Origin: Alloprevotella sp.
GTDB lineage: Bacteria; Bacteroidota; Bacteroidia; Bacteroidales; Bacteroidaceae
Length of the DNA stretch: 64,000 bases
Direction of reading: 5' to 3'
Assembly (NCBI GenBank): GCA_017471505.1
Contig: JAFUTC010000005.1
Coordinates: 1-64,000 of the forward strand
Shown: one piece after another, positions 265-47,225 of the stretch
Position numbering within the stretch: position 1 is the first letter of the stretch
Layout of the letters: each line of letters starts with the position of its first letter
The notes under the pieces: model-generated
What the model saw: the letters and a program-made list of their open reading frames with translations, nothing else
The model's database searches: none
Told to the model about the DNA's origin: nothing
Program-made: the position numbers and the translations under genes

Positions 265-318
265 CGTTCACCGACCATAGTCCGACCCGAGAAAACCACC
301 ATTTTTTCGGCGTTATCC

Positions 319-402
319 CATAATCCAATCCGCCGATTCCATTATGCAATTTTCGGGTGCCATAATCCGATTTTTCTGTCGCATTATGCAAGCGACGCAA
401 AA
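319..402. repeat. 21-bp phased palindromic repeat array A (4 units)
   Basis: Units begin at 319, 340, 361 and 382, all exactly 21 bp apart, each starting CATAATCC or CATTATGC and continuing CRATTTT-like. The core is half of the palindrome ATTGCAT-W-ATGCAAT shared with four other arrays in this window. It lies between the terminators of the left-edge gene and the promoter of the MFS operon. Translating the 21-bp period gives a seven-residue repeat, which should not be mistaken for a protein. Confidence 0.85.
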
Positions 403-8719: not shown

Positions 8720-8846
8720 CGCATAGGAAGCGCAAAAAATTGCATTATAGCGCAGAAAAATTGCATAATACAATCTCGAAATTGTATTATGCAATTTTCA
8801 TATCCGATTATGTAATTTTTCTGCGCCATTATGCGGCAGAACGGCT
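8720..8846. repeat. 21-bp phased palindromic repeat array B (6 units)
   Basis: Units start at 8720, 8741, 8762, 8783, 8804 and 8825, all exactly 21 bp apart. The left units read TGCATTAT or TGCATAAT preceded by AAAAAT, the right ones ATTATGCAATTTT or ATTATGTAATTTT, so the array is roughly mirror-symmetric about 8788. It fills the space between two convergent genes (AmpG-like permease and recQ), where I see no GC-rich hairpin terminator. Confidence 0.85.
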
Positions 8847-8870
8847 TTCTATTCGACGGTCGCAAAACCC

Positions 8871-10790
8871 CTATTCTGCCGGCTTTTCCCACTGAAATCC
8901 GGCTCCAGAATGCCGCAGTGCGCCTTCGTCGGACAACTGCTGCAGCACTGCCGCCACATGCGACTGCGAAATGCCATTGAAATGGAACTCGGCCGGAAGG
9001 TGGACGGCTCCGTCGGCAAGTACCCGCATGACGGCTTTCCGGGCCTGCTTGACGGCGAGAGTATGGTCGGCATTGGCCAGGCAGACATCGCACTGCCCGC
9101 AATCGTGGTCGTTGACCTCGCCAAAATAGTCGAGCAACATGCGCGAGCGGCACGTGTCATCGGACAAGGCATAGCGGATGACAGCCTCTATGCGCTGCTC
9201 CAGGTCGGCCTTGCGGTCGGCATAGACCTCGGGCGGAAAGCGCAGTTCGTCCTCGCTGAGCCTCCGCTGCACAAAGGCCACGCGCGGCACGCGCTTCATG
9301 GGAACGTAGTGGATGATGCGCTGATGGTTGAGTCCCTTGAGAATCTGATAGACAAACTCCGTGCGCAGCCGGCAAGTCTCGGCAATAAACTGCTCGTCTA
9401 TGTTCACATAATTGGTGAACAGGCCTGAATAGTTGCGCAACAATGCCATGACCACCTGCTCGCCTCCGGTTGTGTCGTGGTAGCGGTAGAGTCCCTCGCG
9501 CGACGTGAGGAAGATGAGCCGCGAACTGGACTCGTCCTCCTCGCGATAGTCGATATAGCCGGCGCGAGTGAGAATGCGCAACGCACTCTCTACCACCGAG
9601 GGGAAATACTTGAAGTTTCGGCAAAAATCCTCTACCTGAAATTCGCGCACCGTGCCCTGTCCCTCGCCAAGCGGTATCTGCAGATAGTAGGTAATATCGG
9701 TATATATCTTGCGAATGGTGTCGAGGGGCGGATAGGCATCGGTCACACGGCGGCGAAGGCTGCGCACATCGTTGCCATTATAGAGCAGCACGGCATACGA
9801 CTTCAACCTATCGCGACCTGCCCGGCCCGCTTCCTGGAAATAGGCCTCTATCGAATCGGGCACGTTGAGATGGACCACCAGACGGACATCGGGCTTGTCA
9901 ATGCCCATACCGAAAGCGTTGGTAGCCACCATTACGCGTACATCGCCCTGCTTCCAGGCTTTCTGACGCATGTCTTTGTCGATGCTCGTGATGCCTGCGT
10001 GATAGGCCAAGGCCCTGATGCCATTTTCGTTGAGCCACTTGGCCACATCCTCAGCCTGCTGTCGCATGTGCACATAGACGATGGCACTGCCAGCCACACT
10101 GCGCAGGATGTGAAGGAGTTGCGCCGTCTTGTCCTCGGCCTGACGAACCACGTAAGCGAGGTTGGTTCGCTCAAAACTCATGCTATGGACCACGGCATTG
10201 GGGCGGAAGCCGAGTTGACGGCAAATGTCGTCGACAACCTGTTTCGTGGCAGTAGCCGTAAGGGCCAGCACCGGCACGTTGGGATGCGACTGACGCACCT
10301 GCCCTATCTGCAGATAGGAGGGACGGAAGTCGTAGCCCCACTGGCTGATGCAGTGTGCCTCGTCGACGACGATGTAAGACAGCGTCATAAAGCGCAATTT
10401 CTGCTGAAACGTCTCCGACAGCAGCCGCTCAGGCGACACGTAGAGCAACTTATAGGCCCCAAACGCCGCATTATCGAGCGTACGGTGAATGTCGTGCTTA
10501 TCCATGCCCGAATAGATGGCCGCGGCTGGCAACCCTTGCTCGCGCAAATGCTCGATTTGGTCTTTCATCAGCGAGATAAGCGGCGACACTACCAGGCAAG
10601 TTCCCTCGCCCAGCAGTGCAGGCACCTGGAACGTGAGGCTCTTTCCTCCGCCCGTGGGCATCAGTCCGAGCACGTCGCGCCCCGCCACCACGTCGCGTAT
10701 GATGTCGAGTTGTATGCCCCGAAACGAGTCGTAGCCCCAGTTTTCCCGGAGCACACGAACGAAATCGCTATCGGTGTATGCCGTGGCCAT
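8871..10790 (-). CDS. recQ: ATP-dependent DNA helicase RecQ
   Basis: 639 residues, a 3'-5' superfamily 2 helicase of the RecF repair pathway. Visible are the Q-motif region [10 protein letters not shown], Walker [14 protein letters not shown] box [17 protein letters not shown], motif III LTATAT, and motif [12 protein letters not shown] and QEAGRAGRD. The zinc subdomain has the four cysteines in [10 protein letters not shown] and CGQCDVC. After it there is only a short winged-helix-like tail (to WEKPAE), so the HRDC domain of E. coli RecQ appears absent. It lies 5 bases downstream of recJ on the same strand; RecJ and RecQ act together in end resection, so the pair is probably one operon. Confidence 0.95.
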
Positions 10791-17979: not shown

Positions 17980-18080
17980 AGAAATTAACATTAAAAATTA
18001 CAGATGATTGATAAGAATTTATGTTGTATTTGTGTCTGCTTGAGAGTGCAATATATGCACATTTTGCATAATGTAACTGA

Positions 18081-18111: not shown

Positions 18112-18211
18112 AGATTTATTAAAAAAAAACAATTTTTTGCCCAACTTGTTCCATTATGCAGTCATAAATCTTAATAAAGTGAAAAATAACGGCAACTATC
18201 TGGAAAACTTG

Positions 18212-22809: not shown

Positions 22810-22956
22810 GCATGCTCATGCCGCCGCACTGCATTATGGAAGGGAAAATTCGCATTATGGAATTTTGAAATTGCATAATCCAATCGGCAGATTGCATAAG
22901 GCAATTTCTCCACGCCATTATGCAATTTCAGGGTTCTACTATGCCAACACGAAAAT
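22810..22956. repeat. 21-bp phased palindromic repeat array C (6-7 units)
   Basis: Units start at 22831, 22852, 22873, 22894, 22915 and 22936, with a weaker one at 22810, all exactly 21 bp apart. Cores run GCATTATGGAA, GCATTATGGAA, GCATAATCCAA, GCATAAGGCAA, CCATTATGCAA and CTACTATGCCA. The array sits between the terminator of the GH92 genes and a bidirectional hairpin that closes the oppositely oriented nuo operon. Confidence 0.88.
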
Positions 22957-33321: not shown

Positions 33322-33331
33322 CTACTGCATA

Positions 33332-33348
33332 ATAGAATTTCATTCTAT
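33332..33348. promoter_or_regulatory. Dyad upstream of the nuo promoter
   Basis: ATAGAAT-TTC-ATTCTAT, a perfect 7+7 inverted repeat just upstream of the nuo -33 element and 155 bases before rsmI. It is preceded by TGCATAAT, so it may be a worn copy of the 21-bp repeat core, or an operator. The remaining bases between nuoA and rsmI (33175-33502) show nothing else clear. Confidence 0.45.
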
Positions 33349-37222: not shown

Positions 37223-37270
37223 CGCATTAAACTGTCAAATTTTCACCGCCGACGCACCTGCCTGGAAATT

Positions 37271-37381
37271 GCATTATGAAACCGAAAAATTGCATTATGA
37301 AATAAAAAAATTGGATTATACAATTTCAAAATTGCATAATCCAATTTTCAGATTGTATTATGGAATTTTCCAAGCCACCTA
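37271..37381. repeat. 21-bp phased palindromic repeat array D (5 units)
   Basis: Units start at 37271, 37292, 37313, 37334 and 37355, exactly 21 bp apart, each preceded by ATT (ATTGCATTATG, ATTGCATTATG, ATTGGATTATA, ATTGCATAATC, ATTGTATTATG). Lies 40 bases beyond the 3' end of the DUF2752 gene and upstream of the promoter at 37195-37222. It is the most regular and AT-richest of the five. Confidence 0.9.
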
Positions 37382-41351: not shown

Positions 41352-41369
41352 CACCCGATAAAAGTAATT

Positions 41370-41444
41370 TTGGGGGTGCCACGACTCTTGCGTGGCTGAG
41401 AACATACCCTTACGAACTGAACCGGATAATGCCGGCGTAGTCAA
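41370..41444 (+). ncRNA. TPP (THI-box) riboswitch
   Basis: The conserved thiamine element is easily read: GGGGGTGCC at 41372-41380, GGCTGAGA at 41394-41401, ATACCC, GAACTGAACC, GGATAATGCCGGCG at 41423-41436 and TAGTC. These are the pyrimidine- and pyrophosphate-sensor segments of the TPP aptamer. It lies 57 bases before the TonB-dependent receptor, whose product with PnuT imports thiamine. No obvious terminator hairpin with a T run follows, so control may act on translation initiation. Confidence 0.93.
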
Positions 41445-41500
41445 TAAATTTATTTTCAATCGGACGCATAAGTGTTCGGCGTCCCACAAAAATCCGTTTT

Positions 41501-47094: not shown

Positions 47095-47120
47095 GCCGTC
47101 CGCAGACTTACCCGAAAATT

Positions 47121-47225
47121 GCATTATGCCGTTGAATTATTGCATAATGCAATCTGAAAATTCAATAATGCAATTTCGAAATTGTATTATTGAATTTTTT
47201 TGTCCCATAATGCCGCAGGAGCACA
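47121..47225. repeat. 21-bp phased palindromic repeat array E (5 units)
   Basis: Units start at 47121, 47142, 47163, 47184 and 47205, exactly 21 bp apart: GCATTATGCC, GCATAATGCA, CAATAATGCA, GTATTATTGA, CCATAATGCC, mostly preceded by ATT. The second unit contains ATTGCATAATGCAAT, the complete 15-bp palindrome of the family. It lies between convergent alaS and the ABC permease, where no GC-rich hairpin is seen. Confidence 0.9.

Follow-up and report, generated by a model that had tools for sequence, protein, structure and literature searches.

Helically phased and evenly spaced palindrome arrays between the genes of an Alloprevotella genome

Chromosomal matS and parS sites, and the sites of SlmA and Noc, are single conserved palindromes, found many times per chromosome and bound by one architectural protein. 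Plasmid iterons are repeated sites about 20–22 bp apart for one protein, arranged as direct repeats at one origin. REPINs are described as hairpin-forming inverted doublets whose distribution in extragenic space is random (PMC3116915), and Escherichia coli REPs are reported to be bound by gyrase (PMC3733652). The BrickBuilt MITE of Porphyromonas gingivalis is described as an intergenic 23-nt tandem repeat in dispersed imperfect copies, 19 in number and of 1 to 22.8 repeats each, whose leader and tail parts have small inverted-repeat ends (PMC4596501). Lrp/AsnC proteins are described as bound to a 13-bp palindrome as a dimer, as seen in a crystal, and to clustered imperfect sites whose spacing is two or three helical turns, with about 100 bp wrapped round three dimers in one case (PMC2995911).

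We describe palindrome arrays in the genome of Alloprevotella sp. (GenBank assembly GCA_017471505.1), here the source genome. The window, the whole stretch of DNA first analysed, is positions 1 to 64,000 of contig JAFUTC010000005.1, forward strand. The original prediction, made from the window alone, had placed five arrays there with 4, 6, 6–7, 5 and 5 units at exact 21-bp steps. A weight-matrix scan, which gave the 15-bp unit starts of all five, together with direct reading confirmed every array in its place (Table 1), and every unit step in them is 21 bp. A region that begins in the window and continues beyond it (C2 61307–74366) holds two very long predicted genes of 2,524 and 1,825 aa, the shorter with an LPD3 polyvalent-protein domain.

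Table 1. Positions of arrays, isolated units and other features in the window and in related assemblies
Feature	Location	Strand	Description
Array 1	window 315..392	.	four strong 15-bp palindromic units, starts 315/336/357/378
Array 2	window 8739..8837	.	five units (starts 8739–8823), between convergent AmpG-like transporter and RecQ-like helicase genes
Array 3 (starting finding)	window 22828..22926	.	five strong units (starts 22828–22912), between convergent genes for a GH92 hydrolase and a NuoN-like protein
Array 4	window 37268..37366	.	five units (starts 37268–37352), between tandem minus-strand genes
Array 5	window 47118..47216	.	five units (starts 47118–47202), between convergent alaS and ABC-2 type permease genes
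Isolated unit	window 18063..18077	.	score 13.9, divergent intergenic region
Isolated unit	window 18148..18162	.	score 19.6, 72 bp before a 731-aa gene
Isolated unit	window 33324..33338	.	score 15.2, between divergent genes of 116 and 237 aa
TPP riboswitch (RF00059)	window 41362–41460	plus	Rfam match
G002 dispersed repeat copies	L121 about 8760–9540; G002 C15 234547, 337296, 387563, 155613; L123 8273		longer repeat containing an array
G054 23-bp arrays	L237 8221 and 9623		CTCACAAGTTTGT-type units
UW_MP_BACTE7_1 arrays	L023, L033, L049, L062, L083, L085, L100, L106		GAATGGCATTATG-type units at 21–22 bp
7-bp tandem repeats	L022, L025, L028, L030, L046 and others		CATTATG/AATTATG-like

The source assembly comprises 1.44 Mb in 15 contigs and is 77% complete. 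We surveyed 607 kb of it (contigs C1, C2 and C3, with a first set of 456 kb) and found 54 arrays of palindromic units with the core AATTGCATWATGCAATT, so that the predicted family extends genome-wide and is larger than first claimed. In-register scoring gives five units in 35 of the 54, four in 12, six in 5 and three in 2; the typical number is thus five, a correction to the counts first given. Of the distances between neighbouring units, 176 are 21 bp, one is 22 bp and none is 20 bp, which bears out the constrained register that had been taken to suggest selection on spacing. Across the whole assembly, the pattern CATWATGN{4,34}CATWATG had 98 forward matches against 2 for the reversed control, and with this range of gaps allowed all pairs among the matches listed are at 21 bp. 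When three cores were sought with each gap allowed to be 12 to 16, all 30 forward matches had gaps of 14, hence 21-bp steps. In a scan of 456 kb over lags of 10 to 40, lag 21 likewise accounts for 48 regions and no other lag for more than 2.

Spacers between the 15-bp units are 6 bp, and units vary within one array. CRISPR was rejected on these grounds, as it would require almost identical repeats separated by unrelated spacers of much the same length. Aligned by register, 44 arrays from the 456-kb set carry 20, 26, 27, 24 and 17 bits of information in successive units and 4.8 and 3.5 bits in the next ones, and the whole-array consensus has a rough dyad symmetry about the middle unit. A weak in-register signal extends from unit −5 to unit 10 (each z 2.6–5.1 against off-register offsets), is absent at unit 11 and returns at unit 12 (z 2.8); it could represent weak sites or decayed units.

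When each unit i is compared with the reverse complement of unit 6−i, likeness within arrays equals that between arrays (z −0.5 and 0.0), and unit 3 resembles its own reverse complement less than it resembles those of other arrays (z −5.8), in part because its central W cannot match itself. Half-sites were compared in 246 of the 270 units, 24 weak ones being dropped. At position ±4 the pairs are GC 89, GG 67, CC 60 and CG 12, and complementary pairs number 103 where 126.3 are expected (z −3.7), an anti-compensation also seen when shuffling is kept within unit number (z −3.1) and when all 270 units are used (z −2.8). It is limited to one of seven symmetric positions, with −6 and −7 leaning slightly the opposite way (z 2.1 and 1.8); we take the z of 9.4 at position ±1 in the unfiltered 270 units to stem from missing units. 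At that one position, ±4, the pattern suggests that one weak half is tolerated per unit and two seldom, as would be expected under selection on the binding strength of a dimer. Compensatory changes of note between halves were not found in the source-genome units, which thus lack the hairpin conservation of REP/REPIN type.

The original prediction had listed an RNA processing element among its options. Many arrays do have a gene 3′ end close by, and each unit on its own is self-complementary, as would suit arrays acting as hairpins, terminators or processing sites at transcript ends. We nevertheless regard such an RNA role as very improbable, given the lack of compensation between units, and of any of note within them, and the position of the arrays at 315 and 22828 beyond separate terminator-like hairpins; Rfam too is silent at the arrays, its sole match in the window being the TPP riboswitch elsewhere (Table 1). 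Slippage producing neutral minisatellites would account for the weak tandem-duplication signal between units 3 and 4 (z 3.7). It would not account for the narrow range of unit number, the position-specific constraint, the rough dyad symmetry of whole arrays, their even spacing or the use of the same period with unrelated cores, and we find this origin scarcely credible.

Placement was analysed against genes called with a home-made gene caller. All but two of the 54 arrays are intergenic, one of the exceptions being at a contig edge and the other inside a gene call. Arrays occupy 27 tandem, 15 convergent and 10 divergent gaps, against 382, 48 and 48 gene pairs of these kinds, the tandem pairs including operon-internal gaps. 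Relative to tandem gaps, arrays are over-represented in convergent ones (P 7e-6) and, to a lesser degree, in divergent ones. In tandem gaps the array is closer to the upstream 3′ end in 20 of 27.

The arrays are also evenly spaced. The 33 arrays of C1 are 10.7 kb apart on average and 4.3 kb at the least, with a coefficient of variation (CV) of 0.43; four versions of a null model that draws random gene gaps gave CVs of 0.91–0.93, and in none did any of 10,000 draws reach the observed value. For C1, C2 and C3 together the CV is 0.62 against 0.93 for the null (P 0.0004), with 6 spacings below 5 kb where 18.2 are expected. The largest array-free gap, 46.8 kb at 47–94 kb on C2, contains ribosomal-protein genes. 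This is a distribution more even than chance and not the random extragenic one of REPINs. Even spacing recurs in the related genome G002, and it is suggestive in other species: seven arrays in 60 kb of G003 have a CV of 0.44 (P 0.03), and seven in 75 kb of G009 have a CV of 0.39 (P 0.007) after an open-reading-frame filter, without which 11 lag-hit positions give a CV of 0.59 (P 0.07) and a closest pair at 2.5 kb. It is because of even spacing that we place a role in nucleoid structure or topology first among the options.

Single copies of the palindrome occur as well. Outside arrays, 58 sites score at least 9, and 39 of them are intergenic although intergenic DNA makes up 10% (P 7.5e-26); 25 of these 39 lie 32–163 bp before a start codon. 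From their N-termini we take some of the genes behind such sites to be trpS, pheT, proS and rplM in the source genome, and tyrS/gltX, gyrB and rplC in G002; those flanking the window unit at 33324 are presumably NuoA-like and RsmI-like. The intergenic region that holds the window unit at 18148 has a perfect site in G002. These promoter-proximal sites suggest that the array-binding protein may also be an ordinary regulator in the source genome and G002. A stronger version would make the palindrome the operator of a global transcription regulator in these two genomes, with arrays serving as strong compound operators or decoys beside genes. The isolated sites, the apparent housekeeping genes downstream, aminoacyl-tRNA synthetases among them, and the arrays in 10 of 48 divergent gaps all agree with it. 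We judge it unlikely, as arrays occupy 15 of 48 convergent gaps and prefer upstream 3′ ends in tandem gaps, and a regulon would not predict even spacing. A crude motif scan of G036, G003, G007 and G009 placed single non-coding sites at 3 of 70 hits, a weak contrast since the same scan of 100 kb of the source genome gave only 3 of 34.

The original prediction called for the core to be sought in relatives and named its absence there as a refutation; the outcome is mixed. Among 58 genomes of the genus, only G002 besides the source has an exact CATWATG triple in register, a search that would miss degenerate arrays; G359 has one triple match at another spacing. The architecture, by comparison, recurs with other palindromes. 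In ten species (400 kb), a lag histogram of non-coding DNA counts 11 regions at 21, 12 at 22, 7 at 44, 3 at 42 and at most 2 elsewhere, and of a sample of 16 other species, nine carry arrays with a 21- or 22-bp step (G003, G005, G007, G008, G009, G016, G019, G036 and G064, with G005 and G016 counted on one array each). Nothing convincing was found in G004, G015, G017, G032, G061 and G062, weak lag hits in G015, G061 and G032 not being taken as arrays, and G020, with one match at 22 and one in its alaS locus, was left uncounted. The predicted 21-bp register is therefore exact in the source genome and not universal, sister species using 21 or 22 bp. By exact-pattern searches of genus and family genomes the cores are species-specific; exact doublets of TTCACA, the second core described below, occur in 0 of 301 family genomes, a sample without G002.

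Outside the family, 20 stretches from other families of the order (262 kb, two masked) had no such peak (21 twice, 22 never, 23 three times), and two of the three lag-23 regions, both in G054, are clear 23-bp arrays (Table 1). The Bacteroidales MAG UW_MP_BACTE7_1, of about 30% GC, has near-identical dispersed arrays that may be an example of this element beyond the genus. In a broader contig scan, the one match to the same element among those listed is L095 (Alloprevotella sp. RGIG5064); most others listed were set aside as different things, such as 7-bp repeats, and a Paradesertivirga match is presumably a 7-residue coding repeat. The 7-bp tandem repeats occur in assemblies labelled Prevotella, Bacteroidales or Muribaculaceae, several of them from rumen. 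Viral contigs had no exact match to either core pattern, and spread by phage was rejected.

Array loci were compared between the source and G002. A syntenic interval in G002 sequence exists for 14 of the 54 source arrays: 2 intervals have an array of the same core, 2 have one of the palindrome TTCACASTGTGAA (hereafter TTCACA) and 10 have no array, at least 3 of these 10 holding isolated CATWATG sites. Syntenic gaps that lack a source array have a G002 array in only 1 of 62 cases (P 0.003). Conversely, 4 of 5 G002 arrays with a syntenic source interval have a source array there, and at the place of the fifth, near 91380 of source contig C3, there is a two-unit stretch. Among the window loci, the G002 place syntenic with Array 3 carries a CATWATG array and that syntenic with Array 2 carries a TTCACA array instead. 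At Array 1 a CATWATG array adjoins the corresponding G002 gene stretch, a locus that the automatic synteny test rejected. The G002 stretch aligned at Array 4 holds nothing recognizable, and there is no such array directly 3′ of alaS in G002, the place of Array 5 (the comparison of alaS flanks across relatives is valid for plus-strand alaS matches only).

The second palindrome of G002 falls at the centre of the 21-bp register of the first family. Contigs C15 and C5 of G002 hold 12 TTCACA arrays, eleven of three units and one of two, in a count that looked for 21-bp steps only; with the step unconstrained, 15 of 15 pairs of TTCACA sites less than 70 bp apart are at 21. Two of the arrays are hybrids, fused to CATWATG units in exact register. 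For the other ten, the four best mean CATWATG scores of all offsets are at −42, −21, +63 and +84, in register, although about three of the ten show nothing at most in-register offsets. It seems that the new palindrome took the centre of older arrays and left their phase undisturbed. None of ten TTCACA arrays is within 7 kb of a CATWATG array, where 4.9 are expected (P 0.0014); we do not count this avoidance as independent evidence of shared function, since the TTCACA triples lie within a CATWATG-like register and the two classes may have a common origin in a single set of sites.

Several G002 arrays sit inside a longer dispersed repeat (Table 1). In it one side of the array is joined to TTGACATT...TTAAATTATC, and the opposite side, in several copies, to a GC-rich hairpin that has a T run. 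This dispersed repeat may be a small transcription unit. The TTGACATT motif also adjoins the first array of the window (window 452).

Copying of whole arrays is plain in G003, where 18 of the 21 pairs among its seven arrays align over 68–146 bp at 76.7–98.7% identity, mostly covering little beyond the array, with one pair extending into the flank. G036 has two copies of 247 bp that are 95.5% identical. Dispersed copies of one sequence, as expected of a MITE, are thus seen in these two genomes, and no evident copies are seen among the units or flanks of the source. The arrays could accordingly be small mobile elements of the non-autonomous kind, resembling REP/BIMEs or MITEs, which are copied whole without need of a host function and owe their even spacing to target immunity or to selection against near neighbours. 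The species-specific cores and the dispersed repeat of G002 speak for this, and the 10 of 14 array loci without an array in G002 fit mobile elements better than fixed architecture, although at least 3 of them hold isolated CATWATG sites there. In the source genome, however, array flanks share almost nothing and units are barely more alike within than between arrays (z 0.8 to 3.7), and target immunity leaves the in-register second core unexplained. No target-site duplication was seen in nine aligned source/G002 places, where intergenic DNA is badly diverged. Nor was the Y1 transposase (Y1_Tnp, RAYT) found in the array-bearing source (77% complete), G002 (58%) or G064 (99%) genomes, on which ground REPs driven by RAYT were rejected. 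Y1 matches occur in 22 of 41 genus genomes, and some Y1-gene loci adjoin phased repeats (e.g. L264) under no clear rule; this distribution does not fit Y1 transposase as the binder either. We consider purely mobile arrays a serious possibility, though less likely than not.

Of the options first proposed, a DNA-binding protein is supported as the likely reader of the sites and a nucleoid or topology role leads; the known proteins considered as binders do not fit generally. The arrays share with Lrp/AsnC sites (PMC2995911) clustered palindromes of ~13–15 bp at two- or three-turn spacing. An Lrp alignment took in 30 of the 39 genomes with a match, G009 and G005 being outside it. The recognition helix SRAA..HQR is near-invariant in the 28 genomes other than the source and G002, seven of them counted as array-bearing with other cores, so that Lrp cannot set the core in general. 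Residues N31 and H40 occur only in the source and G002 (L314 and L315), the pair that shares the CATWATG core; all 28 other aligned sequences have R at 40 and none has N31, and Lrp is a possible binder for this pair alone. ParB was rejected, as array-bearing species have no pattern of an extra ParB-like protein: G003, G005, G007, G008, G016, G036 and G064 have one match each and G009 and G019 two, and none was found in the incomplete assemblies of the source and G002. ArgR was rejected because none was found in G007, G008 and G019, which bear 21/22-bp arrays in assemblies 80–91% complete.

The arrays are a real and unusual class of element, phased, constrained at their sites, evenly spaced and with a lineage-specific core. 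They point to an undescribed kind of chromosome-wide protein-binding element in Bacteroidales. The reading we prefer, tentatively and at somewhat under an even chance, is that each array is a platform on which a dimeric protein binds cooperatively, and that such platforms were dispersed whole, are regularly spaced and probably organize the chromosome. The protein, its dimeric state, its oligomerization and its chromosome-level role are inferred; the sequence pattern speaks well for dimer binding, and the chromosome-level role is our best guess. Against this reading stand the turnover of array positions, the isolated promoter-proximal sites, the confinement of anti-compensation to one position, and the less even spacing over three contigs and in unfiltered G009. 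About five dimers of a sequence-specific protein would sit on palindromes of 13–17 bp, on the same helix face at two-turn intervals, and the complex may extend along the DNA beyond them by way of the weak sites in register. Arrays would have spread genome-wide as units and been retained at gene boundaries about every 5–20 kb; the most likely reason for their retention is that chromosome segments are anchored or insulated by the bound complex. The core differs from species to species, and another can take its place with the register kept. A bolder form, which we think possible but rather doubtful, is a lineage-wide chromosome organizer: a fast-evolving DNA-binding protein would nucleate, at intergenic arrays placed at regular intervals, a phased filament with one dimer for every two helix turns and so delimit chromosome domains of ~10 kb, with the core swapped in place during speciation.

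To our knowledge, little is known of chromosome organization in Bacteroidales, and arrays in helical phase, evenly spaced and numbering in the tens per genome, would give direct access to it. Should the arrays be mobile instead, they would form a class of palindromic element in which several sites spread together as one array and the copies stay apart. On both views, the species-specific cores and replacement in register make the co-evolution of protein and site testable. We recognized no description of phased, evenly spaced palindrome arrays of 21/22 bp among the matches listed in a search of the open-access literature.

Comparison with known systems sets the arrays apart from each. Relative to matS, SlmA and Noc sites and parS, the present arrays are phased and multi-site and their cores change fast. 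Relative to plasmid iterons, they occur by the tens around a chromosome. With REP, BIME and REPIN sequences and their RAYT (PMC3116915, PMC3733652), they have in common small extragenic palindromes that are clustered, species-specific and in many copies; they differ from REPINs in having 3–6 units at fixed helical phase, no hairpin covariation, even spacing and no Y1 transposase found in three array-bearing genomes. BrickBuilt (PMC4596501) is likewise a Bacteroidales intergenic tandem repeat in several dispersed copies, whereas the present arrays have about five palindromic units of 21 or 22 bp and number in the tens, evenly spaced. The geometry of Lrp/AsnC complexes (PMC2995911) matches the arrays closely, the difference being that the Lrp helix of the genus is near-invariant while the cores differ.
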